Assembly: GCA_028285625.1 (NCBI GenBank)
Contig: JANQOX010000014.1
Coordinates: forward strand, 302,429 to 366,428
Source of the DNA: Myxococcota bacterium
Lineage (GTDB): Bacteria > Myxococcota_A > UBA9160 > UBA6930
Reading direction: 5' to 3'
Length of the DNA stretch: 64,000 nucleotides
The notes beneath the pieces were generated by a model, which saw only the letters and a program-made list of their open reading frames with translations, was not told the origin of the DNA and made no database searches. Within the stretch, counting starts at the first letter, position 1. The number at the start of each line of letters is the position of its first letter. Below, in pieces: positions 4,410-25,788 of the stretch. The translations under genes were made by a program, and so were the position numbers.

Positions 4410-4765
4410 CCGACGAACAGTTCAACGCCTGGCTCGCCGCGCATGAGATGATCGGATTCTATCTCGATGCGACGCGCGCCCTCGACCGTCTCTACCGTTC
4501 CGAAGCCATCGATCGCACGCGCTACCGCAGCGAGAGAGCTGCGCTCGATGTGAGCCGGATCCAATGGGAGGAGAGGGCGCGTGCTCTCGAGGAGGGATGG
4601 TCGCCGATCACCGGCCCGACCGAGGCGCAGGTCGCCGAGCTCTCTTCTGCCATCGAGAGCCTGGGCCGATCGGTCGCCGCGTCCAACGCCGTCGACGGGC
4701 TTCTCGGCACCATCGCAGACGCCGCGACGACCGCACGGTCTCTCGCCGCGGGCCCGGCCGCATGA
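4406..4765 (+). CDS. Hypothetical small helical protein (119 aa)
   Basis: ATGA-coupled at both ends within the operon; MTDEQFNAWLAAHEMIGFYLDATRAL... Confidence 0.7.
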   Translation: MTDEQFNAWLAAHEMIGFYLDATRALDRLYRSEAIDRTRYRSERAALDVSRIQWEERARALEEGWSPITGPTEAQVAELSSAIESLGRSVAASNAVDGLLGTIADAATTARSLAAGPAA

Positions 4766-5733
4766 GTTCGCCGAACCCCTACGAGTTCGAACGAAGCCTG
4801 AGGCTGATCCAGCGCAACCGTACGGGTCGACACCTGGAGTCCGATCTCGCCGAGTTCCTGAGGCGAATCGGAGTCGATGGGCTCGAGGGCCGGGACGGCG
4901 AGGTCGCGCGGCGTTTCGTGGCTGCCGCCCATGAGAACGCGACCTGGTACGTGCTGCAACGACGGCAGGAGTCCATCAAGCGGGTCGCCTACATGGTCTT
5001 GACCGTGGCTTTGGTGGTTCTGCTCCCGATCGTCACCTGGTTCATGCCGGCCGCTTCGGCGATGGCTCTCGATCGGGCCGGTGTGTCGCAGGCGGACCCA
5101 ACCAGTGCCGCGATCATCACCGCACAGCTGACGGCCCTGCTCAGTGGCTTCTTCGGCATCCACCGCCTGGTGACGGCATGGATGTTCCGTCGCAACTCGG
5201 CGTATGCGTTCTGGAAGGCGAGTACGGAGCTGAAGGCGCTGATCTACTCGATCGAGGACGGCTTCCGCCTGGCAGCCGAGAATGGGGCGCCGGGCCGGGT
5301 GCGTCAGGTCTTGCGTGGTGGCATCCAGAAGGCAGAGGCGATCGTGCAGGAGGAGCGCGAGACGTTCTTCCGGTCGCTCGAGGCTACGGCGGTGGATCTC
5401 GATCGGCTCGTGGCGCGGTCGACGGAGTCTGCGCAAACCCTGGTGACTCGCGTGAGCCAGCCCATCATCGAAGAGATCGCTTCGAAGCAGGTCGCCGCGG
5501 AGCAGCACGCTGGCGAACTGCGAACGGCGAAGCGTCGGCTGCTCGAGGCGCTGACGAAGCGCCGTCTCCACGAGGAGCGCCTACGGCGTCTCCGCGCGCG
5601 TCGCGCGTACGTTGCGGGTGCCGACGAGGCGCCTCTCGAGGCGAACATCGAGGCCCAGGCCCAACGTCTCGCGGAGTCCGAGCTCGAGGTGGTCGGGGTG
5701 AAGGCGAGCTGGAAGGCGGTCTCCAGCGCCTGA
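4762..5733 (+). CDS. Hypothetical membrane protein with two TM helices and C-terminal coiled coil (323 aa)
   Basis: MSSPNPYEFERSLRLIQRN...; TM segments VAYMVLTVALVVLLPIVTWFM and AAIITAQLTALLSGFFGI; ATGA overlap with upstream gene. Confidence 0.75.
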   Translation: MSSPNPYEFERSLRLIQRNRTGRHLESDLAEFLRRIGVDGLEGRDGEVARRFVAAAHENATWYVLQRRQESIKRVAYMVLTVALVVLLPIVTWFMPAASAMALDRAGVSQADPTSAAIITAQLTALLSGFFGIHRLVTAWMFRRNSAYAFWKASTELKALIYSIEDGFRLAAENGAPGRVRQVLRGGIQKAEAIVQEERETFFRSLEATAVDLDRLVARSTESAQTLVTRVSQPIIEEIASKQVAAEQHAGELRTAKRRLLEALTKRRLHEERLRRLRARRAYVAGADEAPLEANIEAQAQRLAESELEVVGVKASWKAVSSA

Positions 5734-5748
5734 CGGGCTCCCTGCTTG

Positions 5749-6444
5749 CTACTCGAGCCGACAGACCACCCGCGAGAGGCGCTCGCGGACGTCCGCTACG
5801 CCGCTGGGCCCGGTGCAGACGATGCGCTTCTCGTGCAGCCCGAGGTCGCGCAGCTCGGCCTCGCGGCCCTGGTCGCGTAGCTCCTGCACGTACGGGATCT
5901 CGCCCAGGGTGTCGATCTCCTCGAGCGTGAGTCCGGCGCGCCGTTCGCTGGGGATGCCTGAGACGCGGCCGGCGAAGACGTCGTCGACGTAGTCCCAATC
6001 GACGCCCTCGCGGTCGCGCAGCTCGGCGATGCGTCGCGCCTGCTCGCGCGCCAGGCGCGCGTCCGAGTCTCCGGACGCATGCGCGGTGCGCCCCATGGGC
6101 GGCCCCGCCGACACCGCCGGCGACGGGTTCGTGCGCGCGAAGACGCGACGGACTACGGGCTCCGAAGGCCGCGGCTCGTTACCAGCGGGCCGCTCCGCAC
6201 CGCCCTCGCGCGCCAGCTCGCGCCGCATCTCGGCCTCGAACCAGGTGGCCAGCAGCTCCGGGTCGTCCAGTGTCGGAGGGCGTGACGCGTCGCCCTCGGC
6301 CTGGCTCGTCGTGGCCGGGGCGGCCGCAGGCAAGGTGCCGTCCGACCCGCGGTCGCCGGTACCCAGGCCCGCCGCGACCCCGAACGCTGCGAGTACGAGG
6401 AGAACGATGGGCAGGACGGTCGTGAGCCAACCGCGAAGGCGCAT
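5749..6444 (-). CDS. Hypothetical single-pass membrane/secreted protein (231 aa)
   Basis: MRLRGWLTTVLPIVLLVLAAFGVAAGLG N-terminal TM; convergent with the upstream operon. Confidence 0.6.
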   Translation of the reverse strand: MRLRGWLTTVLPIVLLVLAAFGVAAGLGTGDRGSDGTLPAAAPATTSQAEGDASRPPTLDDPELLATWFEAEMRRELAREGGAERPAGNEPRPSEPVVRRVFARTNPSPAVSAGPPMGRTAHASGDSDARLAREQARRIAELRDREGVDWDYVDDVFAGRVSGIPSERRAGLTLEEIDTLGEIPYVQELRDQGREAELRDLGLHEKRIVCTGPSGVADVRERLSRVVCRLE

Positions 6445-6535: not shown

Positions 6536-8098
6536 TCAGGCGCCCAGGGCGCCCCGCGCGACGTCGGTGAGCGCGCCCAGGGCGGCCACGGCACCGAAGA
6601 AGAACACCCACGACGAGGTCGCGCCCACTCGGAGCTCCACGTGCCGACGCACGTTGATGACGACCGTGAAGACGGCCAGGATCCACACCGCCATCGCGAA
6701 CCGGCCGGCCAGGTCGCCACTCGCCCCGGACTCGATCCAGCCCCCGAGGCTCGCACCTGCGGCGATGCCCAGCAGCACGAGGCCTACGCGGACGAATGCC
6801 GGAAGGCCGCCCCACGCGCGGGCGAGCGCGCTGCGCGGAGGCGTCGGCGCGTCGGTGGACTCGGTGGTCGGCTGGCTCGCCTCTACGGCGGCCTCGTTGG
6901 GCGGTGTGCCCGCCTCGATGGCCGTCTCGAATGCCCGGGCGCGCGTGAGCGCCCGCTGCGCCCGTTCGCGCAGGTCGGGGGCGACGTCGGCCTCGGGGTC
7001 GAAGGGGCCGAGCTGGCGGTTCGCAAGCTCGAGCGTGGCCCGGTGGCGGAACTCTTCGTTGCGCCCCATCACGAGATCGACCATGCCCACGTAGCCCGCC
7101 GGCAGCACGGGCGCCTCGTCGAACACGCGCAGCTGCTGGAAAGGTCGCGCCGGAAACGCGTGGTGATCGGCATGGCGCGACAGGCCGGTGAGCCCGTAGT
7201 ACGTGAACCAGGCGTGGGTGTCCCACGAGTCGACCGGCCGCACCTTGCGCTGCCTGCGCACCAGCCCCCAGTGCTCGAAGTAGTTCACCGCCTCGAGCAG
7301 CCGGATGGCCGTGAACGCCTGGAGCAGGAAGGCGAAGAACGCCGCGAAGCCGAAGGCCGCCCACGCGGCGAAGGCCATGGCCCAGCCCACTGCGATGCCG
7401 TGGAGGATGCGATTGCCCAGCATGCGGCGATCGAAGAGCTTCATGTCCTCGTCGCCCAGCCGCCGCGCTTCGAGGCGCCAGGCGCTCGCGAACTGCGCGG
7501 GCACCGTGCGGCGAAAGAACGGTTCGAAGCGCTCGCCGAAGCGCGCGGTGGCCGGGTCGGCCGGTGTGCCCACGCGCACGTGGTGGCCGCGCAGGTGCTC
7601 GGTGTAGAAGTGCTCGTAGAGCACCGTGCAAAGAAGCAGTCGCCCGAGCAGCCGCTCCCAGGCCTTGGTACGGTGGATCAGCTCGTGGGCGGTGATGATC
7701 GAGAAGCCCGAGCTCGACCCCACCACCAGGAAGATCATCACCGAGTCCACCGAGAAGATGGCCTGGGTCTGGTACATGCGGCAGAGCTCGAACACGACCA
7801 GGAACTGGAGGCCCGCGAGGGTGTAGACCAGCGCATCGAAGGGCCAGGCCGGCAGGCTCGCCACCGGCTGTCGGCGCTCTTCGAGCGTGCGCGTATCGAG
7901 CGCGAACGCCACCACCAACGGCGCCAGGAACAGCGCGGCCACCCACCAGGCGTGGGGGCCGGTCCAGACGAAGGCGAGCGCCACCGCCGGAAAGGCGAGG
8001 GACGTGAGATGCTTGGCGAAGATCCAAGCGACCTGACCCGCGCTGGGGGTCGGCGCGGCGCCCGCGTCGGGGCGCGCGGTAGGTGCCGCTGCAGTCAT
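6536..8098 (-). CDS. AlkB-type membrane di-iron alkane monooxygenase / fatty-acid-desaturase-like, with C-terminal membrane extension
   Basis: Histidine boxes HELIHR, EHLRGHH, LSRHADHH and NYFEHWGL as in AlkB; extra C-terminal hydrophobic segments. Confidence 0.85.
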   Translation of the reverse strand: MTAAAPTARPDAGAAPTPSAGQVAWIFAKHLTSLAFPAVALAFVWTGPHAWWVAALFLAPLVVAFALDTRTLEERRQPVASLPAWPFDALVYTLAGLQFLVVFELCRMYQTQAIFSVDSVMIFLVVGSSSGFSIITAHELIHRTKAWERLLGRLLLCTVLYEHFYTEHLRGHHVRVGTPADPATARFGERFEPFFRRTVPAQFASAWRLEARRLGDEDMKLFDRRMLGNRILHGIAVGWAMAFAAWAAFGFAAFFAFLLQAFTAIRLLEAVNYFEHWGLVRRQRKVRPVDSWDTHAWFTYYGLTGLSRHADHHAFPARPFQQLRVFDEAPVLPAGYVGMVDLVMGRNEEFRHRATLELANRQLGPFDPEADVAPDLRERAQRALTRARAFETAIEAGTPPNEAAVEASQPTTESTDAPTPPRSALARAWGGLPAFVRVGLVLLGIAAGASLGGWIESGASGDLAGRFAMAVWILAVFTVVINVRRHVELRVGATSSWVFFFGAVAALGALTDVARGALGA

Positions 8099-8134
8099 GG
8101 GGGCTCCATCGGGCGACTCGTAGCAGCCATTGAG

Positions 8135-8150: not shown

Positions 8151-8362
8151 TGCGAGTGCCACGGCACGGCGCTGTGCGGGGCCGGTCCGCATCCCGGGCG
8201 CACGCCGCAAGGGTGCGCGTCGTGCGGTCGACGCAACGCGGGAGGTGCTCGGCTTGACACCCATGCGGTGGTGCCGACGCATTGTTCGTCCGGCGCCGCA
8301 GGGCGGTCCACGAGGCCCGCCACCGCTGGCCCGCTCGGACCGCGAAGACAAAGGAGATCCAC

Positions 8363-8824
8363 ATGGCTCAGATCAGCCCGTCTCGACACGGCGGCGTCGA
8401 CCCCTGGCGCGACTTCGACCGGCTGCGCCGGGAGATGAACGCGCTGCTCGGAAACTTCGGCTCGGCATCGCCGCTCGCGAGTGGACACCGCGGGGTGTAC
8501 CCCGCCGTGAACCTCTACGAGACCGACGACGCGTACGTCCTCACGGCGGAGCTGCCCGGGGTGGCCGGTGACGACATCCGCGTGCTCGTCGAGGGCAACA
8601 CCGTCACCGTCGAGGGCGCCCGACAGGTCGCCTACGCCGACGAAGAAGGCGTCAGCCTGCATCGGCGCGAACGCCAATCGGGCCGCTTTCGCCGCGCGTT
8701 CGAGCTGCCGGCCGCGATCGCAGCCGACGCCGTCGAGGCCGTCCATCGCAACGGCGTCCTCGAGTTGCGCCTCACCAAGACCCCCGAAGCCCAGCCGCGC
8801 CAGATCTCGGTAAAGGCGGGTTGA
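8363..8824 (+). CDS. Hsp20/alpha-crystallin family small heat shock protein
   Basis: YPAVNLYETDDAYVLTAELPGV...NGVLELRLTKTPEAQPRQISV typical Hsp20 core; RBS aaggag. Confidence 0.9.
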   Translation: MAQISPSRHGGVDPWRDFDRLRREMNALLGNFGSASPLASGHRGVYPAVNLYETDDAYVLTAELPGVAGDDIRVLVEGNTVTVEGARQVAYADEEGVSLHRRERQSGRFRRAFELPAAIAADAVEAVHRNGVLELRLTKTPEAQPRQISVKAG

Positions 8825-8838
8825 AGGAGAGACGAACC

Positions 8839-9237
8839 ATGACCGAAGCCCACGAACTGCAGACGCGAGAGAAGCACGAACTCGAAGGGGAGGGCACCCG
8901 CCCCGGCCCCGTGTTCCGCCCGGACGTCGACATCCTCGAGCGCCAGGATGCCTACGTGATCTACGCCGATCTCCCCGGTGTGGATGATCGTTCGATCGAC
9001 GTACGGCTCGACCGCGGCGAGCTCACCCTCGATGCGCGGCAGGCCGCGCCTCCCGACGCGGGCTGGCGGCCCCTGCACGCGGAGTACCGGCTCGGCTCCT
9101 ACCACCGGGTCTTCCGCGTGTCCGAGGACATCGACGGCGAGGCCGTGACGGCGCGCATGAACGCCGGCGTCCTGGAGCTCACGCTGCCCAAGAGCGCCGC
9201 GCGCAAGCCGCGGGCCATCCCGGTGCGGCCGGGCTAG
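8839..9237 (+). CDS. Hsp20/alpha-crystallin family small heat shock protein (second copy)
   Basis: FRPDVDILERQDAYVIYADLPGVDDRSIDVRLDRGELTL...NAGVLELTLPKSAARKPRAIPV; 14 bp after previous gene. Confidence 0.88.
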   Translation: MTEAHELQTREKHELEGEGTRPGPVFRPDVDILERQDAYVIYADLPGVDDRSIDVRLDRGELTLDARQAAPPDAGWRPLHAEYRLGSYHRVFRVSEDIDGEAVTARMNAGVLELTLPKSAARKPRAIPVRPG

Positions 9238-9341: not shown

Positions 9342-9935
9342 ATGGCGCAGACCAAGGAACACGAGATCGTCTCGATCTACCCCTTCACCGACGAAGAGGT
9401 AGATCAGCTCATGACCCACGCCGGCGAGGCCGTGCTCATGTGGGCCACGCGCGATGGCTGGCCGGTGGGCGTGACCCACGCCTTCTTCTGGAAGGACGGC
9501 AAGATCTGGCTCACGTTCGCCGCGCACCGCCATCGCGCGGCCGCCATCCGGCGCGACCCGCGCGTCTCGGTGAACGTGAGTTCGGCGAGCTACATGCCGA
9601 GCGCGCCCAAGGGGTTGCCGTCGGGTGCGATCACCTTCAAGGGAACGGCCGAGTTCCTGGACGACGACGCGACGAAGGCGTGGTTCTACCCGGCGCTCGC
9701 GAAGAAGGTGAGCCCCACCAACGAGGCCTTCGAGACGTTCTTCCAGAACCTGCTCGACACGCCACTGAGGACGATCGTCGCCGTCACGCCCGTCAAGCGC
9801 ATCATGTACAACGCGGGGATGGCGAACCGCCACATGGCGGGCACGATCACCGAAGAAGAGCTGGGCGAACGCCTCGAGAGCGACGCCGTACGCATGAACG
9901 CCCTCCGCAAGGAGAAGGGCCTGGAGCCGGTCTGA
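9342..9935 (+). CDS. Pyridoxamine 5'-phosphate oxidase (FMN-binding split barrel) family protein
   Basis: GEAVLMWATRDGWPVGVTHAFFWKDGKIWLTFAAHRHRAAAIRRDPRVSV fold signature. Confidence 0.7.
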   Translation: MAQTKEHEIVSIYPFTDEEVDQLMTHAGEAVLMWATRDGWPVGVTHAFFWKDGKIWLTFAAHRHRAAAIRRDPRVSVNVSSASYMPSAPKGLPSGAITFKGTAEFLDDDATKAWFYPALAKKVSPTNEAFETFFQNLLDTPLRTIVAVTPVKRIMYNAGMANRHMAGTITEEELGERLESDAVRMNALRKEKGLEPV

Positions 9936-10837
9936 CCCCGGCAGACGCCTACGCGTCGATCGCCGCCGAGTTCGGGGGGCGGTTGCTGCGTCGCTGGCCG
10001 CTGCGGGGCGGCGTGTCGGCCGACGTGCAGGCGCTTGCGATTGCACTGCCCGAGGGAGGCGAGCGCGAGATCGTCGTGCGCCGGCACGGCGCCAGCGGTT
10101 GGAAACCCCAGGAGGCTGGCGTGACCTCGGTGGAGTACGCCGTCCTGGGCGCGCTCCACCGTGCGGGGCTCCCGGTGCCCGAGCCCCTTGGGCTCGATCT
10201 CTCGGGCGAGCGGCTGCCCGGGCCCTACCTGGTGGTCGACTTCGTGAAAGGACGGGCCGAGCCGCGCGACCTCGAGGCAGGCCTCGTCGCCATGGCGCGC
10301 TTTCTCGTGGCGCTGCACGCGCTCGACGTCGCATCGCTCGAGCTGCCCGACTCGTTCCCCGTGCGGGAAGACCCGATCGCCGAGCTTCCGCAGTACCTGC
10401 CCGACGCGCTCACCGCGGTGGGCCGAGCCCTCTCCGAGAGGACGCTCGCGCCCGTGCCCATCGCGTTGCTGCACGGCGACTTCTGGCCGGGCAACGTGCT
10501 GTGGCAGGGCAACCAGATCGCCGCGGTTCTCGACTGGGAGGACACGGCCCTCGGCGACCCGGCCTGCGACCTCGCCGGAGCGCGCGTCGAGCTGACGTGG
10601 AAGTACGGGCCGGATGCGGCCGAGACCTTCGCCACCGCCTACCGAGAAGCGGGAGGCCCCGCGATCGGCGCCGAGCGGCTCGCGGTCTGGGAGCTCTTCG
10701 TCACCGCCGCGGGGCTGGCCTTCATGGACCGTTGGGGCCTCGAGCCCCAGGTGGAAGCCAGCATGCGCGAGCGATCCCAGACGCTACTCGAATCGGCGGC
10801 CTCGGTGCTTGCCGATGGGTCGGGGCCCGTGGCGTGA
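9932..10837 (+). CDS. Aminoglycoside phosphotransferase-like (APH/choline kinase family)
   Basis: LLHGDFWPGNVLWQGNQIAAVLDWEDTALGDPACDLA matches APH catalytic HGDxxxxN and DxD regions; likely non-AUG start (CTG at 9932). Confidence 0.8.
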   Translation: MTPADAYASIAAEFGGRLLRRWPLRGGVSADVQALAIALPEGGEREIVVRRHGASGWKPQEAGVTSVEYAVLGALHRAGLPVPEPLGLDLSGERLPGPYLVVDFVKGRAEPRDLEAGLVAMARFLVALHALDVASLELPDSFPVREDPIAELPQYLPDALTAVGRALSERTLAPVPIALLHGDFWPGNVLWQGNQIAAVLDWEDTALGDPACDLAGARVELTWKYGPDAAETFATAYREAGGPAIGAERLAVWELFVTAAGLAFMDRWGLEPQVEASMRERSQTLLESAASVLADGSGPVA

Positions 10838-11904
10838 TCCGCATGGCGGCCCGGCTCGCTCGCGCACGCCGCCCCCAAGCGGTGGCTCTGCTGGACCAGT
10901 CGGCCATACCAGTCGAAGGTCCCGGTCCGCGCGTCGCGCCGGACGGACCGGCAGGTGGCGGCGATCAGGCGGCGTAGCCGGGGTGTCGCCTCGGCTTTCT
11001 GGAGCTCGATGCTGGGGTCCCAGAGCTCGAAGCTCGCCGGCGCCAGGCGCTGGGCGTCGTGCATGCCATACGCCAAGGGCCAGAGCGCGCCCTCGGCGTC
11101 GAGCACCACGGGGTTCGCCAGCCCGGCCAGCCGGTCCGCGCCTGCGCGGGCCTGGCCGGGCGCCGCGCGCCGCTCGATGGCGACCAGCGCGCTGCGTTGC
11201 GCCAGGTCCACCTGGAACCCGAGCGTCGGGTAGCGCACGTCCAACAGCGCGGCGATGAGCGCGACGCGGTCGAGGTCTGCCGGGCGGAGACGAAGCGCAT
11301 CGCATGCGTAGGCCGCTCGACCGACCATCGTGAGCGGATGGAGCTGCAGTGCGTGCGCGCCCTGGTCGACGGCGAACCCCGCCAGCCACGGAAGATCCTG
11401 GATCGACGCGCGGGTGAAGCAGTGCGAGATGGCGAAGGGAACGCTCGCCTCTCGCAGTCGCGCCAAGCCCTGCGCGACCTTCTCCAGTCGCCCTGCGCGC
11501 CCGCGCAGGGCGTCATGCCTTTCGGCGGCACCCTCGACACTGACCCCGATCGAGCAGGCGAACCGGGCGAGCGTTTCGATGCGGCGTGCTTCGAGCAGCG
11601 TGCCGTTGGTGATCAGCGTGATGCGATAGCCGAGCGCGCGTGCGTCGGCGAGGATCTCGGGGAGTTCGGGGTGCAGCAGGGGCTCGCCCCCGGAGAAGCT
11701 CGCCACCGTATAGCCTTCCCAGCGAAGGCGCTCGAGGCGATGTTGCAGGCCTCGCCGGCTCATCCGCTCTCGGCGCGCGGGTCCCGAGGTCGAGTAGCAG
11801 TGCTCGCACCGCAGGTTGCACTGCAGGGACAGGTGCACCTGGACCGTCGGGTCGGAGAGGAGCCCGGCCGGCGCCGAGGCGCCGGCCGGGGTGTGCTCGC
11901 GCAC
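10639..11904 (-). CDS. Radical SAM protein
   Basis: CNLRCEHC (CX3CX2C) cluster motif, SFSGGEPLLHPELPEI, ITLITNGTLL; 3' end overlaps the convergent APH-like gene. Confidence 0.85.
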   Translation of the reverse strand: MREHTPAGASAPAGLLSDPTVQVHLSLQCNLRCEHCYSTSGPARRERMSRRGLQHRLERLRWEGYTVASFSGGEPLLHPELPEILADARALGYRITLITNGTLLEARRIETLARFACSIGVSVEGAAERHDALRGRAGRLEKVAQGLARLREASVPFAISHCFTRASIQDLPWLAGFAVDQGAHALQLHPLTMVGRAAYACDALRLRPADLDRVALIAALLDVRYPTLGFQVDLAQRSALVAIERRAAPGQARAGADRLAGLANPVVLDAEGALWPLAYGMHDAQRLAPASFELWDPSIELQKAEATPRLRRLIAATCRSVRRDARTGTFDWYGRLVQQSHRLGAACASEPGRHADHATGPDPSASTEAADSSSVWDRSRMLASTWGSRPQRSMKASPAAVTKSSQTASRSAPIAGPPASR

Positions 11905-11914
11905 GATGCCCTTC

Positions 11915-12220
11915 CTAACCCTCGCGGTCGAGAACGTGCTCGACCTGCACCAGGAAGCCCTCGGGCAGGATGATCCCCTTCGGGAAGATCCGCATCGGAC
12001 CGAGAAGCGGGTTGCTCCGGAGCTTGTCGAGAAGCTCGGTCAGGCCGTCGCGATCCACGTAGTAGTCGAGGCAGATTCCATAGGTGCAGATGTCGACGTC
12101 GATCGGGGGCCGTCCGATCGGTGTCACTTCTCGAACGAGATTCGAGAGCGCGGTATCGCTCACGCCCTGCGAAGCCAACCGCTTGGCGAGCGCGCCGGCG
12201 AGCTCTTCCATTTCACGCAT
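11915..12220 (-). CDS. Small unknown protein (101 aa), possible precursor or partner of the radical SAM enzyme
   Basis: MREMEELAGALAKRLASQGVSDTALSNLVREVTPIGRPPIDVDICTYGICLDYYVDRDGLTELL...; 10 nt upstream of the radical SAM start. Confidence 0.65.
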   Translation of the reverse strand: MREMEELAGALAKRLASQGVSDTALSNLVREVTPIGRPPIDVDICTYGICLDYYVDRDGLTELLDKLRSNPLLGPMRIFPKGIILPEGFLVQVEHVLDREG

Positions 12221-12524
12221 GTCCAGTCTCCCGGTGTTCGCGCAACCCGTTCGCGGGCCGCTGCCGTCCGGAAGAGCAAGAAAGGTGCCAGGCGGAGAGG
12301 AGGCTCCGAGGCGTCGAGACGCATCCGTTGGCCGATGGAACCGGTCCGAGAGTGGTCGCGGCTCATCCCGGTTGGACGCCCCGTCCACCCTGGTGGACAC
12401 CGTCTGCGTCGCGGATGCTGTGCCGCGGCCGAGCCGACGCGGCGGTCGGCTCTGTCGCGCGGTGATCGTCGTCCGCGTACGGGGGTGCGGAGATGGCCGC
12501 GGTGCCATCCCGAAAGGGGGGCAG

Positions 12525-12546
12525 GCGCGGGGCCGGGGCCCCGCGC
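12525..12546. terminator. GC hairpin between small-protein/rSAM operon and PEP-CTERM gene
   Basis: GCGCGGGGCC-GG-GGCCCCGCGC perfect stem, no U-tract; just after the 12561 stop on the minus strand. Confidence 0.45.
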
Positions 12547-12560
12547 GGTATGCTCGGGGC

Positions 12561-13310
12561 CTAGCGGCGGCGGCCCCGCGCAGCGGCGAGTGCGGCCGCG
12601 GCGAGTCCGAGCATGCCCAGGGCAGCCGGCTCGGGGGCCGTGAAGAGCGACCCGTCGAGATCGACCTCGGTGATCGAGAACCAGCCGCCCTCGGTGCCGG
12701 GCGTCACGATCTGCGAGAGCGTGACCGCGAAAGCACCCACGCCGTCGAGCGACGAGCCCGTGAGGTCGATGCGGTCGTTCACGGGCACGCCGAGAGAGCT
12801 GTTCACGGCCCCGAAGGGCGTGGTCGCGAAGGTCTCGGACACGGTCGTGAAGTCGGTCTTCAGCAGCGTGACCGTCACCTGCGTGATGGCCCCGGGGATG
12901 CCGTTGACGGAGTTGTCGCTGCCGAAGATCTCGATGGTGTCCACCGAGTGCGCGAAGGGCAGGGTGAAGGTGATGAACGGCGCGAAGGTCGTGCCATCGG
13001 TGGCCGTGGGGCCGGTCACGAAGAGCTGCGTCTCGGCCTCCCCGGCGCTCACGACGCCGTCGGTGAGCGTCCCGCCACCTACGCCCGAGTAGAGTGCGCG
13101 CGTACCCGGGAACCCCTGGTGCGTGAAGGCCACATTCGGCGTGATCGTGCCCGTGTACGTGTGCGACCACGACCCGCCGCCGTGGCCCGAGAGGGCGGCG
13201 TCGCCGATGTCGTAGCCCGAGATGGGAATGGGGGCCGCGGTAGCGGGGGCCGCGAAGCCGAGGGCGAACAACAACAGAGCAGGCAACCAGAGCGTTCGAG
13301 GGGTCGACAT
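12561..13310 (-). CDS. PEP-CTERM sorting domain protein
   Basis: Signal peptide MSTPRTLWLPALLLFALGFAAPATAA; C-terminus APEPAALGMLGLAAAALAAARGRRR. Confidence 0.85.
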   Translation of the reverse strand: MSTPRTLWLPALLLFALGFAAPATAAPIPISGYDIGDAALSGHGGGSWSHTYTGTITPNVAFTHQGFPGTRALYSGVGGGTLTDGVVSAGEAETQLFVTGPTATDGTTFAPFITFTLPFAHSVDTIEIFGSDNSVNGIPGAITQVTVTLLKTDFTTVSETFATTPFGAVNSSLGVPVNDRIDLTGSSLDGVGAFAVTLSQIVTPGTEGGWFSITEVDLDGSLFTAPEPAALGMLGLAAAALAAARGRRR

Positions 13311-13570
13311 GGTGGTGTCCTCGTTGGGTTCCCAAGCGTGGGCGCCCTCGCGCGCAGCGAGCTGCGCACGAGCGCACGGCAGTGGGTGGGTGCCCCGGAG
13401 CCTCACGAAGGTGACGCCGTGCCGCATAACGTCCCGAGACGCCAGCGGGTTCGGCCGTTGAAAGGCTGGGGCCGCCTCGGCTGTGCCGGCCCCACGGGGC
13501 TCGGCGCCCTGCCATGGTGCGGACGCGCCGATTTGCCGCGCCCGGGGCCGGTGACTAGGTTTGGGGCCTT

Positions 13571-13935
13571 GGGGGCGATCGGCTTCGACGGGTGGTCGAA
13601 GGCGGACGCTGCGTGTCGAGGTCGTCACCTACCTCGTGAAACCGGTGGCAACTGGTACTACAAGTGCCGACGACAACTACGCTCTCGCTGCCTAGCTGAA
13701 ACTAGCGCCAGCGACGTCCATCCCTGACGTCTCCTAGGGGGTCATGGACGTCATCTTGGAGACTCTGCCCCCGGCCGCTGGCAGGCCGCATCCGGGGGCG
13801 AGACACATGTCTGCCAAGGTGGGCGCTTCTCCGGTCCCGGCGACTGGCCCCATCGAGATCGAGCTGGGACTACACACGTAGACGCGGGCGCTGGACGTCA
13901 TGCGGACGCGGGTTCGATTCCCGCCGCCTCCACCA
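13571..13935 (+). ncRNA. ssrA: tmRNA
   Basis: 5' GGGGGCGATCGGCTTCGACGG pairs with 3' CGCCTCC of GCGGGTTCGATTCCCGCCGCCTCCACCA; internal tag ORF ends GCC GAC GAC AAC TAC GCT CTC GCT GCC TAG (ADDNYALAA*). Confidence 0.96.
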
Positions 13936-18948: not shown

Positions 18949-21900
18949 ATGCTGAAGCTCCCCGGAAGCCTCCGACCGCGGTCGGGGCTCCTGCTCGTCT
19001 GTTGCCTGCTCCTAGCCGCCTGCGAGAAGCCGCCGGAGGAATTCTCCGAGCTGTCGTGTCGCGTGGCCGGCGATGCGATCGAGTTGAGCTGGAGCGACGA
19101 CGTCGGCGCGGAGGGCTACCGCGTCTACCGGGCGCTGGGCGACGGGGACGCGGCGCCGATCAGCGACACGCGGCAGACGCGCTTCGTCGATCCGGTCGCG
19201 GACCTGACCGAGGTGCCGGAGTACGAGGTGCGTGCCTTCGACGCCGAAGGGCGCGAGTACGCGGGTACCCCGAGCTGCGTTCCCGGCGAGTCCTCGGCGG
19301 GCTTCGCGGTCAACCAGGACACGCCGGAGCCCCCGCAGCAGCTGGTCTGCCGCGGCAAGAACGGCAAGGTCGACCTGCTGTGGGAGCCGTCCCAGGGGGC
19401 GGCGACCTACCGGGTCTACCGCTCGATCGACGACGGACTGCCGGGCGTCGACCAGATCGCCGAGGTCGCCGAGACCGCGTACCAGGACCTGCCCGTCGCC
19501 AACGGCACGATGCACTCCTACCAGTTGACCGCGGTGAGCCCGGGCGGCGTCGAGTCGAGCCCGACCGACTTCTGCGACGCGACGCCGCGCTCGCAGGGAG
19601 ACGACGGCCCGGCGCCGACGGCCGTGGGCGCGCTCCGCTGCCGCGCGAAGAACGACAAGGTGAACGTGTCGTGGGCGCCGGTCGACGGAGCCGCGTTCTA
19701 CCGCGTGGAGCGCACCACCCCCACCGCCACGACGCGGGCCGGCCAGGTTCTCGATCCCGCGTTCGCGGACTTCGGGCTCGAGATCGGCGTGCCGGTCTCG
19801 TACACGGTCATCGCGATCGCGGCCTCGGGCGCCGAGGCAGAGCCGTGCCAGGCCTGCGAGGTCACGCCCACCGAGCTGGGCGACGGCAACCTCGCTCCGT
19901 TCATCACGACCGAGCCGCTGACGACCGGGCTCGAGCTCCACCTCTACTACTACGACGTCGCGGCGGAGGACCCCGAGGGCGAGGAGGTCACCTACTCGCT
20001 CGAGACCGCGCCGGAAGGCATGGCGATCGTGCCCGAGACGGGCTTCATCTCCTGGCGTCCGACCGAGCCCCAGGTGGGCCCGCATCCGGTCGAGGTCCGC
20101 GCGACCGACCCGCTCGGCGCCTACGGCGTGCAGGCCTTCAGCGTCGACGTGGCCGCATACAACCGCCCGCCGAAGATCACTTCCATCCCGGTGCGGTACG
20201 CCCGAGTCGGCGACGGCTACGACTACGACGCCGACGCATTCGACAAGGAGGGCGAGACGCTCTCCTGGAGCTTCGCCGAGGCCGCGCCGCTCGGCATGGC
20301 GATCGACCCGGGCAGTGGCGAGATCTCGTGGGACGCGCCGCTGGCGGCCGTAGGCCAGGTCGACGTGGCCGTCCGCGTGGCCGACCCGTCGGGTGGGTTC
20401 GACACGCAGACCTATCCGCTGGACGTCGTCGCCGACCCGCTCGTCGTCGAAGCGCCGAGCGGCACCGTCCAGATCCTGGTCGGCGAGACGTTCGAGGTGG
20501 ATGCGCGCGCGAACTACGCCGGAGCCGGCTTCCGCGCCGTCCCGCTGCCGGCCAACGCGACGCTAGCCGGCCGCAGGTTCGCGTTCACGCCCGACGACGG
20601 TCAGGAAGGCACCTACGACGTCGGCTTCGAGGCCTCGTTCGCCGGAATGCGCGCGGCCAGCGTGCTTACGGTCGAAGTGGTGCGCCCGAACGCCGGCCCG
20701 ACGATCGACCCGGTCGGCCCGTTCGAGGTCGCCGAGGGACGCGAGCTGCGCTTCGAGATCACCGGAGCCGACGACGACGGAGATCCGCTGGTGTTCTCCG
20801 CGCCGGGGCTCGCGATCGACAACGCGGTCTTCGACGAGATCGACCGCGTGTTCCGCTTCCGCCCGAACTTCGACCAGGCCGGCAGCTACGAGGTCGTCTT
20901 CGACGTCAGCGACGGGCGCGACTTCGCGCAGACCACGGCGCAGATCGTCGTCACCGAGTCCGCGCCGCCGCTCGACGCGCTCGACCTGGTGCTCGATCCG
21001 GTGCAGAGCCCGACGTTCCAGAACCGCCAGGGCATCTCGGGCTCGATCGTCGGCGAGATCGCGGCCGGTCCGGGCGACGCCGGTCTCGGGCCGCTGGTCG
21101 TCGGGATGGATCCGGCCATCGGGCGACAGGGCGTCGTGCTCGAGGTCCTGCTGACGGGCCAGGATACGGCCTTCGAGCAGGGCGCCGCGCAGCCGAGCTT
21201 CGGGGCCGGCATCGACGTTCTCGAGGTGGAGGTGCTGTCACCCACCTCGTTGAAGGCCATCGTCGAGGTGCTGCCCGATGCGGAGCTCGGCGCGCGCCGC
21301 GTCCGCGTCCAGCAGGCCGGCCGCTCGGTCCCGTCGGTGATCGGGTTCAACGTGCGCCGCGGCGCATCGGCGATCTCCGGCACCATCCTCGACAGCTTCA
21401 CCGGCCAGCCGCTGGTCGGCGCGCGGGTCCGCGTCAACGGCAGCGACGCCGAGGCCGTGACCGACGAGAACGGCAAGTTCGAACTGGTCGGCGCTCCGTC
21501 GGGGCCGCAGACGCTCGTCTTCCACACGCAGAACTACGGCATCCGCCGCACCGAGCTGACGGTGCTCGAGAACCAGCGCGTCGCGTTCGAGGACCCGTTC
21601 GAGCTCGACGCACTCGCACGGCCCTTCAATCCCGGCGGATCGATCCCGCGCGCGGCCACGGTCGCCAGCGTGCTCGATCGCGGGCTGGGCAGCGTCGCCG
21701 GCGGACTCGACCTCGAGCAGGCGAAGGCGCTGGTCGCGGACACGATCCTCGCGCTGGGCACGGACGAGATGGGCGTGCGCGACGAGGCCGGCAACCAGCT
21801 GAACCCGCTGATGACCGACGACGGGCTCTTCACGTTGAGTCCCGTCGGCCTCGAGGTCATCGCCCGGCGCTGGCAGGAAGGCCACGTCTACGACCTGGGC

Positions 21901-24900
21901 ACGCTGCTCGGCAACCTGGACGGCTTCGTCGGCTTCGCGCTCGAGTTCGACTACGAAGGGTCGCTGGCGAGGCTCCAGCAGGGGGTGGACGAGGCCTGGG
22001 CCAACCCCGGTGATCCGCGGTCCGCGCTGCCGATCCTGCTCTTCAACCAGGGCACGTCGCTGTCGCCGCTGCCGCCGATCCTGACGTCGGCGACGCCGAT
22101 GAACGCACTGCAGGCCTACCTGCTGACGACCAGCTTCATCGCGCGCCACGCGGTGCAGATCGACGCGGCGGTGGACCGCCTGCTCGAGAGCGCCGGCGCC
22201 GAAGGCGCTGCGGCCGGCCAGCTCTTCCGGGGCGACGGCGATGCACTGGCCGGGATCGGAACGCCGGAGGAGCAGGAGCGCGCTCATCTCCATGCCCTCG
22301 CCAAGGCCGTGCTCGGCCTGCTCGTCGCACGCCCGGCCCACGCGCAGGAGGCCCCGGAAGGCGAGGAGATCCTGCCCAACGCCAACAACCCGCCCGCCGA
22401 CAGCTGGACCGACTTCCTGTGGAACTCGCTGCCGGACGCGAAGGGGGCGGCCATTGCCGCAGCGGTCGCGTTGGGCATCACGGCGATCTTCTTCGTGATC
22501 GGCGGCGGGGCCGCGGCGCTGTTGACCGGGGCATTCCTCCTCGCCGCCGGGACCGCGATCGCGACCGGCCTGGCGCTCGGGATCATGGCCAAGATGTACT
22601 CGACGCTGGTCATCCCCGGCACGCGGAACTCGGTGCGACCGGAGGCACCCATCGCGGACAGCTTTGCCGTGTCGCGGCTTCCGGGGTCCGAGGACAAGAT
22701 CACCATCAAGTTCCAGCGCTCCACGTCGGACATCGCCGTCGAGAACGCCCGCGAAGCCGGCACGACGAGCGTGCTGCCGTACGTTCGAGGCCTGAGCGAC
22801 CTGGCGGATCTCTTCGGCCCGGGCATCAACCCGCAGTTCTTCGAGTTCGAGTACCACCTCTGGCGCTTCTCGAGGGCCGACGACACCAACCTGCAGACGG
22901 GCACGCTGCTGTCGCAGATCTCGCTGCCGGTCCGCGACAGCGACACCGTGCGCCAGTTCGTGATCCGCGCCGACGCGCTCCCGGAAGGAGACAGCTTCTT
23001 CCGCATCTCGACGATCCAGATGTACGACAGCTTCTTCACGCGCAGCATCGGATCGCAGGGCCAGCGCGAGGTCTATCCGATCGAGCTCGTCTACCAGGAC
23101 TTCGGCCTGCGGCCGCCCAGCGGCTCGACGGCGGTGACCAAGTCCGCGCTCGACTTCGGAGCGTCCGTCCCCAACGGCGTGATCCAGGCCCAGATCCTCG
23201 CGACGGAGGCGGAGATCGCGACGCTCCAGGCCCGCTACGCGGCGCTGACCGACGATCTGATGGTCCAGGACGGCGTCACGCGCGAGCTCCAGGGAATGCA
23301 GCGCGAGCTCCGCGGGGCGCGTGTCGCGCTCGAGCAGTCGATCCAAGAGCTGACGTTCAAGCTCCGCCGGCACACGGAGCTGATGGAGGTGCTCGACCAG
23401 CACATCCGCGACAGCTTCGCTCGGAACCTGGGGCCCGACGCCACCGTCGCCGCGCTCGATCAGCCGTTCGGCGGCGTCGGAGAACGCCTGCGGTCGATCG
23501 CCGGCGCCGAGGCCTATGCACAAGCCGAGCCCCACCTGAAGGCCGCCGCGAGGAACGCCTACCAGCTCGAGACGGGCCTTAGGATCGAACGCATCCAGGA
23601 AGCCAACCTGAAGACGCTGACGCGCCAATCCGCGGAGCTCGACGATGCGTTCCGCGCGATCGCAGAACAGGACAACGTCGTCCGATCGGTGGTCTTCGAC
23701 TTCTCGCGCGACAACCACGTCGACCCGCGCGTCCCCGACACGTCTCCGGTCGTTCGGACGGAGTTCATCGCCACGATCATCAAGAAGCCCGGCGAGCCTC
23801 CGCGAGTGATCGGCGTACCGGGGGTGTCGACCCCCTCCGAACTCGCGGAACTGGTGGATGGCTACCTCGACTTCGCGAACGAGCGGCTCGACGCCTCGCG
23901 ACGCGTCAATCGTGAGATCACCGACGCCGTCGACGAAGCCCTCGACCGGAACACGCTGATCAGTCCCGAGGAGCTCCAGCGCTACGTCGACGCCAAGGGC
24001 CGAGTGGATGCGGAGTCGGAGACCATCCGCAAGCAGATCTACGAGTCGCAGCGAGCCCAGGGTGAGATCGCTGACGAGCGCTCCAAGGTCAACCAACGGC
24101 GGAGTGGCGCCCAGGCCAAGAACGCGCAGCTCTCCGAGGTCGCGGAGCCTCGCAAGAACGCGCCGAAGACGAAGGGCCGGCTCACCCGCCAGGTGCTCGG
24201 CACGACCGCCGAGGTGTTCGGAGCCGCCGCGGACGTCGCCGATGCGTCGATCCAGGTGCGCGACGGCATCAAGGTCATCCCGAGCCCGCTGTCGCCGCCG
24301 TACTTCGTGCGCAAGGAAGGCGACGAGATCCAGTACGACTTCTTCGACGGCATCCTGCGCCCGATCTCCCGGCTGGCCCCCGCGCCCGACTCGGCCGAGG
24401 CCCGCGTCCGCCTCGCGATGGCGGAGCGGGACTGGGCGATCGGAGACGGCAGCGAGGAGAGCGCGGCGGCGCTGGCCGCCGTGGGCACGCGCTTCGTCGC
24501 CGACGTCGTACCGGCGATCCACGTCGGCCCGCCGGGCTTCCCGGTGCAGCGGGTGCAGGCCACCGGGATCGGCCTGGCGCCGAAGTTCGAGACCGACTGG
24601 CGGCCGGAATACTGGCGGGCGTTCATCCGCACGGCCGGCGACGCCGAGAACCCGAAGGCCGGGTATCTGTTCCGGGACCATCTGATGGGCCCGACGGACC
24701 CCGAGCCCACCAGTGCCGGCTTCCCCTCTGCCGTGATCGCGCTGGACTCCAAGGGCCGTGTCTACCTGAACAACTCCAGCTCGAACTCGCGCTTCGGCGG
24801 CCGGATGTTCCGCTTCTTCGGCGATCCGGTCACGCGCGAGCTGGTGGGGACGATCAACTACTACAGCTCACTCCTCGGGGTCTCGCGCGCAGCCGCTCCG

Positions 24901-25788
24901 GTCGCGATGGACATCGGGTCCTACGAGGACACCACCTACGGCCTGGTCGAGGACCTGTTCATCGCCAACCGGGACGGCAACCGGCGCTTCAACGGCAGCA
25001 TCGCGCCCAACCGGGTGCTGCGCCTGCCGGTCCACCTGATCGACAACCACCCCGGGTTTGCGGCCGGCCAGCGCGACCGCATCGTCGGCCAGCCCTACGC
25101 CGACCACGAGGATTTCCGCTTCACCGGTCCGTCCGATCTCGAGGTCGACCGTCGCAACGCGCTGGAAGACGGCCCCAGCACCCTCTACCTGTCCGACGAA
25201 GAGGTGCTCTACGCGCTGCTGCCGCCGGAGACGCCAGGCGGCGGCGCCATCGTGAAGGAAGTCCTCCGGATCGACGGGCGGCGCTGGTCGGGCATCGCGG
25301 TCGACGCGAACGGACACATGCTGTTCGCCGACTGGAACGCGGGCGAGGTCTTCCTGCTGACCGCCGACGAACTCGAGCGCATCCTCGCCGGCGGACCGAT
25401 CACGAGCAACAGCGACCTCGACGAGCGGGGCTTCCTGCTGAAGGTCGGCCTGAACCGACCGACGGACATCGAGCTCGACGCGCACGAGGCGCGATACGTC
25501 GTGTCGACGCCGGACGGCTTCCAGCCCTTCAATCTGTCCGTGGTCGGGCGGTTCGGGGCCAACGTCCGCGAGGTGCGGCTCGTCGTGGCCGGTCGCGAGC
25601 TGCCGGTCACCCGGCGCCCCGACCGCGGCAACATCTTCATCGCCGGCTTCGCGAGCGAACGCACGCTGGGCAAGACCGCGATCCTGAAGACCCGCATGAT
25701 CGACCCCGGCTCGGGTCGGGAGTTCTGGGCCAAGCGCGAGATCCAGCTCTCGCTGTTCGGCGCCTCGCCGCTGGAGGAGCCCCTCTAG
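18949..25788 (+). CDS. Giant lipoprotein with fibronectin-III/Ig-like domains, TM/helical region and C-terminal beta-propeller-like region (2279 aa)
   Basis: Lipobox LLAAC; repeated FN3-like AxxYRVYR motifs; Ig-like DPEGEEVTYSLETAPEGMAI; carboxypeptidase-regulatory-like SGTILDSFTGQPLVGARVRV; NHL-like segments near the C-terminus. Confidence 0.85.
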   Translation: MLKLPGSLRPRSGLLLVCCLLLAACEKPPEEFSELSCRVAGDAIELSWSDDVGAEGYRVYRALGDGDAAPISDTRQTRFVDPVADLTEVPEYEVRAFDAEGREYAGTPSCVPGESSAGFAVNQDTPEPPQQLVCRGKNGKVDLLWEPSQGAATYRVYRSIDDGLPGVDQIAEVAETAYQDLPVANGTMHSYQLTAVSPGGVESSPTDFCDATPRSQGDDGPAPTAVGALRCRAKNDKVNVSWAPVDGAAFYRVERTTPTATTRAGQVLDPAFADFGLEIGVPVSYTVIAIAASGAEAEPCQACEVTPTELGDGNLAPFITTEPLTTGLELHLYYYDVAAEDPEGEEVTYSLETAPEGMAIVPETGFISWRPTEPQVGPHPVEVRATDPLGAYGVQAFSVDVAAYNRPPKITSIPVRYARVGDGYDYDADAFDKEGETLSWSFAEAAPLGMAIDPGSGEISWDAPLAAVGQVDVAVRVADPSGGFDTQTYPLDVVADPLVVEAPSGTVQILVGETFEVDARANYAGAGFRAVPLPANATLAGRRFAFTPDDGQEGTYDVGFEASFAGMRAASVLTVEVVRPNAGPTIDPVGPFEVAEGRELRFEITGADDDGDPLVFSAPGLAIDNAVFDEIDRVFRFRPNFDQAGSYEVVFDVSDGRDFAQTTAQIVVTESAPPLDALDLVLDPVQSPTFQNRQGISGSIVGEIAAGPGDAGLGPLVVGMDPAIGRQGVVLEVLLTGQDTAFEQGAAQPSFGAGIDVLEVEVLSPTSLKAIVEVLPDAELGARRVRVQQAGRSVPSVIGFNVRRGASAISGTILDSFTGQPLVGARVRVNGSDAEAVTDENGKFELVGAPSGPQTLVFHTQNYGIRRTELTVLENQRVAFEDPFELDALARPFNPGGSIPRAATVASVLDRGLGSVAGGLDLEQAKALVADTILALGTDEMGVRDEAGNQLNPLMTDDGLFTLSPVGLEVIARRWQEGHVYDLGTLLGNLDGFVGFALEFDYEGSLARLQQGVDEAWANPGDPRSALPILLFNQGTSLSPLPPILTSATPMNALQAYLLTTSFIARHAVQIDAAVDRLLESAGAEGAAAGQLFRGDGDALAGIGTPEEQERAHLHALAKAVLGLLVARPAHAQEAPEGEEILPNANNPPADSWTDFLWNSLPDAKGAAIAAAVALGITAIFFVIGGGAAALLTGAFLLAAGTAIATGLALGIMAKMYSTLVIPGTRNSVRPEAPIADSFAVSRLPGSEDKITIKFQRSTSDIAVENAREAGTTSVLPYVRGLSDLADLFGPGINPQFFEFEYHLWRFSRADDTNLQTGTLLSQISLPVRDSDTVRQFVIRADALPEGDSFFRISTIQMYDSFFTRSIGSQGQREVYPIELVYQDFGLRPPSGSTAVTKSALDFGASVPNGVIQAQILATEAEIATLQARYAALTDDLMVQDGVTRELQGMQRELRGARVALEQSIQELTFKLRRHTELMEVLDQHIRDSFARNLGPDATVAALDQPFGGVGERLRSIAGAEAYAQAEPHLKAAARNAYQLETGLRIERIQEANLKTLTRQSAELDDAFRAIAEQDNVVRSVVFDFSRDNHVDPRVPDTSPVVRTEFIATIIKKPGEPPRVIGVPGVSTPSELAELVDGYLDFANERLDASRRVNREITDAVDEALDRNTLISPEELQRYVDAKGRVDAESETIRKQIYESQRAQGEIADERSKVNQRRSGAQAKNAQLSEVAEPRKNAPKTKGRLTRQVLGTTAEVFGAAADVADASIQVRDGIKVIPSPLSPPYFVRKEGDEIQYDFFDGILRPISRLAPAPDSAEARVRLAMAERDWAIGDGSEESAAALAAVGTRFVADVVPAIHVGPPGFPVQRVQATGIGLAPKFETDWRPEYWRAFIRTAGDAENPKAGYLFRDHLMGPTDPEPTSAGFPSAVIALDSKGRVYLNNSSSNSRFGGRMFRFFGDPVTRELVGTINYYSSLLGVSRAAAPVAMDIGSYEDTTYGLVEDLFIANRDGNRRFNGSIAPNRVLRLPVHLIDNHPGFAAGQRDRIVGQPYADHEDFRFTGPSDLEVDRRNALEDGPSTLYLSDEEVLYALLPPETPGGGAIVKEVLRIDGRRWSGIAVDANGHMLFADWNAGEVFLLTADELERILAGGPITSNSDLDERGFLLKVGLNRPTDIELDAHEARYVVSTPDGFQPFNLSVVGRFGANVREVRLVVAGRELPVTRRPDRGNIFIAGFASERTLGKTAILKTRMIDPGSGREFWAKREIQLSLFGASPLEEPL

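Follow-up and report, generated by a model that had tools for sequence, protein, structure and literature searches.

A rare two-gene unit in which a small protein of no known family accompanies a radical SAM enzyme clade without SPASM auxiliary-cluster cysteines

The window analysed here is a 64,000-nt stretch of a Myxococcota genome. It contains, on the minus strand, a gene for a small protein (P0001) followed by a gene for a radical SAM (rSAM) enzyme (P0002). The features of the locus are as follows.

about 9935-10837, plus strand: aminoglycoside-phosphotransferase-like gene (PF01636)
10639..11904, minus strand: radical SAM enzyme P0002, CX3CX2C motif intact
11905..11914, minus strand: 10-nt intergenic gap between P0001 and P0002, fitting a single transcript
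11915..12220, minus strand: 101-aa small protein P0001, not assigned to any family

The coding part of P0001 spans 12220..11918 on the minus strand with the stop codon at 11915-11917, and P0002 starts with a GTG codon at 11904. The original prediction of a 101-aa ORF with an rSAM gene beginning 10 nt past its stop agrees with these ORF coordinates, and the two genes are probably co-transcribed. The small ORF can also be read as 197 aa; homologues favour the 101-aa form, the sequence of which includes MREMEELAGALAK...DVDICTYGICLDYYVDRDG. No promoter- or terminator-like consensus sites were found, and positions 12221-12563 held no convincing candidate for an extra short precursor ORF. Just upstream of the pair lies an ORF at 12564-13628 (minus strand) with a PEP-CTERM-like C-terminus (EPAALGMLGLAAAALAAARGRRR), and its start is adjoined by a tmRNA gene at 13571-13935 (plus strand) with the tag ADDNYALAA.

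Five further pairs were found in genomes of Myxococcota and Pseudomonadota. Together with the window, the six pair rSAMs are:

the window (G000)
L030/L023 (G239, Myxococcota)
L137 (G881) and L118 (G363), from one family within the window's phylum
L031 (G491, Pseudomonadota) and L139 (G949, same order as L031)

In all six, a gene of about 100 aa belonging to one family lies directly upstream of the rSAM gene, with the small genes of L137 and L031 (2/6) cut by contig ends. The original prediction had proposed to check whether homologues of the small protein adjoin this rSAM clade, and every rSAM clade member found has such a neighbour. The same gene order with homologous proteins in five further genomes shows that the pair is beyond chance, as does the concentration of codon differences at third positions (0.26/0.25/0.55 for codon positions one to three between the window and L137, 0.47/0.37/0.67 between the window and L023). 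Similarity among the small proteins was assessed by shuffle z scores, which were 43 for window-L137, 25 for window-L023, 7 for window-L118, 12 for L023-L031, 10 for L118-L031 and 7.1 for L118-L139; the L139 protein is tied to the family mainly via L118. The six rSAMs form one clade (support 100/98), and its nearest outgroup is an rSAM from a Mycolicibacterium plasmid (support 99/95).

The two-gene unit is rare and patchy. Among 379 genomes of the window's phylum the small gene was found at a convincing score in two, the window's own and G239. A C-terminal rSAM profile, for which the sequences of the window, G239 and L031 (a relative at a contig edge) were used, set true relatives clearly apart: three matches in the phylum reached 320, 319 and 142 bits, and the next one 36. 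A sample of 278 genomes from the phylum to which L031 belongs gave no further members. Reverse searches with P0001 or the two-row profile A1 covered part of the tree, namely the window's own class (91 genomes), its phylum (379) and the order of G239 (184), and returned only paired copies above noise. Plasmid and phage tblastn searches with the small proteins found nothing, and scans of viral contigs gave no genuine pair. Two candidates from the viral-contig scans were rejected, L027 as a short chance match and L110 because its 30% identity covered the rSAM core only. Weak P0001 matches in L022, L024, L025 and L026 lay inside long unrelated frames or covered a short stretch and were attributed to chance, and L138 was set aside because its distant match covered only part of the C-terminal region (44 bits) and no paired small gene was recognised.

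As originally predicted, P0002 is a radical SAM enzyme with a CX3CX2C motif: it carries CNLRCEHC, matches PF04055 at E = 3e-21 and has the core fold of the superfamily. The three radical-SAM cysteines are invariant across the six pair rSAMs. All six lack the cysteines of seven SPASM-region columns, each of which is Cys in 94-100% of 16 other relatives; one of these columns is occupied by an unrelated tail cysteine in the window rSAM only. The C-terminal SPASM/twitch half of P0002 is kept in outline without its cluster cysteines, and by these cysteines the clade does not belong among the SPASM/twitch enzymes. No NCBIfam SPASM family model reached its cut-off for P0002, which matches generic cores only (81 NCBIfam models, weakly). 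The predicted extent of the enzyme needs correction, as homology ends near residue 345 (~10870), and the last ~66 codons of the ORF (10639-10837) run antisense to the aminoglycoside-phosphotransferase-like gene and have no counterpart in relatives.

The AlphaFold model of P0002 had a pLDDT of 76.5 and a pTM of 0.80. Its best Foldseek matches and nearest solved folds were SkfB, SuiB and anSME (TM by query 0.57-0.65). All three of these enzymes bind auxiliary clusters, whereas the pair clade has no auxiliary-cluster cysteine at all. Compared with viperin the model gave a TM of 0.73 by target length; the prokaryotic viperin family NF038283 matched P0002 over the core with 71.1 bits, below its cut-off of 180, and the PADLOC pVip model matched residues 21-143 only (77.9 bits). 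GeoRSP rSAMs (TIGR04303) gave near full-length matches in the genome scan, but they have the full set of SPASM cysteines and sit on another branch of the tree than the pair clade.

P0001 had no match in Pfam or NCBIfam at E up to 1, nor in PHROG or PADLOC, and its relatives gave only sub-threshold noise against family models. The original prediction had not recognised the small protein as a member of a known precursor family; indeed, neither Nif11, NHLP, PqqA nor any other precursor model in Pfam or NCBIfam matches it, and it falls in no known unrelated family either. There was no match to PqqD (PF05402), and hhalign of the small-protein family against two PqqD-like proteins gave a probability of 0.1%. 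Secondary structure was predicted, at low confidence, as alpha-alpha-beta-beta-alpha-beta-beta-beta, with a hairpin at CTYGIC and a strand at FPKGIILP, and a strand-helix-strand-strand pattern is common to the family. An AlphaFold model based on two sequences was poor (pLDDT 46), and a PDB fold search with this model gave no match at E <= 0.001.

Conservation extends over the full small protein. Identity in successive thirds of the window/L023 pair is fairly even (38%, 35% and 29%), the conserved segment reaches to about 10 residues from the C-terminus, and no partition into leader and core is present in these two proteins. Identity to the window is 59% for the small protein and 45% for the rSAM of L137, and 39% and 43%, respectively, for those of L023, so that the two proteins change at about equally slow rates. 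The hairpin segment, seen as CTYGIC, CMFGIC, CTLGIC or CRYGQSGVDGIC, retains Cys 45 and Cys 50 in four of the six small proteins (window, L137, L023 and L118). L031 has an arginine at the second cysteine, its first cysteine position being beyond the contig end, and the L139 protein contains no cysteine; the sole invariant residue in the alignment is one glycine. The Cys/Tyr segment that the original prediction had pointed out is accordingly not kept throughout the family. In the rSAMs, an 'HC' pair at residues 161-162 (about 11419-11424) is found in the window, L023 and L137 and is replaced in L031, L118 and L139; the rSAMs that have it are those whose small protein carries the short CTxGIC form.

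Besides the pair itself, no gene was common to the neighbourhoods examined, and specifically no RiPP transporter, protease or peptidase, or second modifying enzyme. The pair is tightly flanked in L118, with about 140 nt between the upstream gene and the start of the small gene and 15 nt between the rSAM and the end of a convergent gene, and in L139, where the corresponding distances are about 80 and 7 nt. At these two loci an overlooked precursor gene would have hardly any space, if any.

Small partners of rSAM enzymes have been described. The splicease PlpX, a SPASM-containing rSAM, acts with the small protein PlpY, a truncated RRE encoded beside precursors with Nif11 or nitrile-hydratase leaders (PMC11002830). 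PlpX/PlpY (TIGR04103 / IPR026482) likewise combine a SPASM-type rSAM with a separately encoded small partner. P0002 does not belong to this family, as it matches TIGR04103 over the core only (66.7 bits, cut-off 725); unlike in PlpXY, the small protein has no PqqD/RRE match and no precursor genes were seen nearby. A splicease reading based on the TYG in CTYGIC was rejected, since the tyrosine is a leucine or phenylalanine in close relatives. The outgroup enzyme, WP_155921908.1 on plasmid pCBMA213_1 of Mycolicibacterium sp. CBMA 213, is sister to the six rSAMs; it also lacks the cysteines at the first two SPASM columns and, as in the pairs, has a gene directly upstream, encoding a 118-aa protein (P0003). 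P0003 was rejected as a family member, having no detectable relation to the small proteins save for a weak, unconvincing similarity to L139. On the plasmid (L111) the rSAM gene occupies 4542-6068 and the 118-aa gene (GDFGTVGPRGPHGPRPH) lies 30 nt upstream, possibly a second type of small-protein/rSAM pair.

The pair is a previously unnamed and uncharacterised family, and its rSAMs make up an unnamed clade in which the small protein is a constant companion and the SPASM auxiliary-cluster cysteines have been lost. Cysteine loss and small-gene gain may each have been a single event, so that their correlation counts as one independent instance. Our preferred explanation, put forward tentatively, is a dedicated two-component rSAM system whose small protein folds and serves the enzyme as an obligate partner. 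Even conservation, a pace of change similar to that of the enzyme, the missing leader/core split, the lack of a universal reactive residue and the lack of RiPP accessory genes all make the small protein best read as a folded partner, and this reading is further favoured by the pairing in all six clade members found, by the loss of the SPASM cysteines, by the PlpX/PlpY precedent and by the likeness of the rSAM model to the peptide- and protein-modifying SkfB, SuiB and anSME. For complex formation, partner role, substrate and chemistry we infer the following. The rSAM would use one [4Fe-4S] cluster to generate a 5'-deoxyadenosyl radical, and auxiliary clusters would no longer be bound by its SPASM-like C-terminal half. 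The partner of about 100 aa, encoded by the first gene of the presumed transcript, would bind the rSAM and either provide substrate docking or complete the degenerate C-terminal half. The substrate would most likely be a peptide or protein encoded elsewhere, and with no substrate gene beside the pair this account is incomplete.

The strongest competing explanation takes the whole, folded small protein as the substrate, into which the enzyme would introduce a crosslink or another residue change to give a protein-derived cofactor or a stabilising link. The enzymes anSME and QhpD act on target proteins and would be the model for such a reaction, and the nearest folds of the rSAM model also speak for it. 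The unit would then be self-sufficient, as the flanks of L118 and L139 suggest, and in the window's sub-clade the modification would most obviously fall on the C-x(2-8)-G-I-C hairpin, which four of the six small proteins retain. We nevertheless consider this reading less likely than a folded partner, because no reactive residue is common to all six (arginine in L031, no cysteine in L139). Its more specific form, a minimal cofactor or crosslink system in which a single-cluster rSAM with a decayed SPASM half modifies its own folded partner of about 100 aa, is less likely still. If the companion does replace the lost half or serve as substrate, the pair would offer a compact test system for SPASM-type enzymes without auxiliary clusters.

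Action of the rSAM on a small molecule or tetrapyrrole, with the small protein as carrier or regulator, is improbable. The highest-scoring NCBIfam models over the P0002 core are the heme-pathway rSAMs NirJ, AhbC and AhbD (NirJ 1.9e-26, NirJ2 5e-25), but P0002 is not a NirJ, the match to TIGR04051 being confined to the core at 92.9 bits against a cut-off of 515; the SPASM cysteines are absent from the clade, and the neighbouring genes that were examined included neither heme d1 genes nor other tetrapyrrole genes. Least probable, by a little, is a classic leader-core RiPP precursor from which a C-terminal or central segment would be excised after modification: a small gene right before the rSAM and two cysteines with a tyrosine in a short segment fit it, but there is no leader/core split, the motif is not conserved, no protease or transporter is common to the loci and no precursor model matches. 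Of the RiPP-like unit originally proposed, the conserved pair therefore stands and the precursor role is not supported, and the enzyme partner that had been offered as the alternative fits better.

Elsewhere in the window, two tandem HSP20 small heat-shock genes (PF00011) lie at 8282-9237 (plus strand), adjoined by a gene for a membrane enzyme of the fatty-acid-desaturase family (PF00487) at 6539-8134 (minus strand). A 2279-aa ORF with a lipoprotein-like start (LLLAACEKPPEEFSELSCRVAGDAIELSW) occupies 18949-25785 (plus strand), and a secreted-looking ORF follows it after 5 nt.
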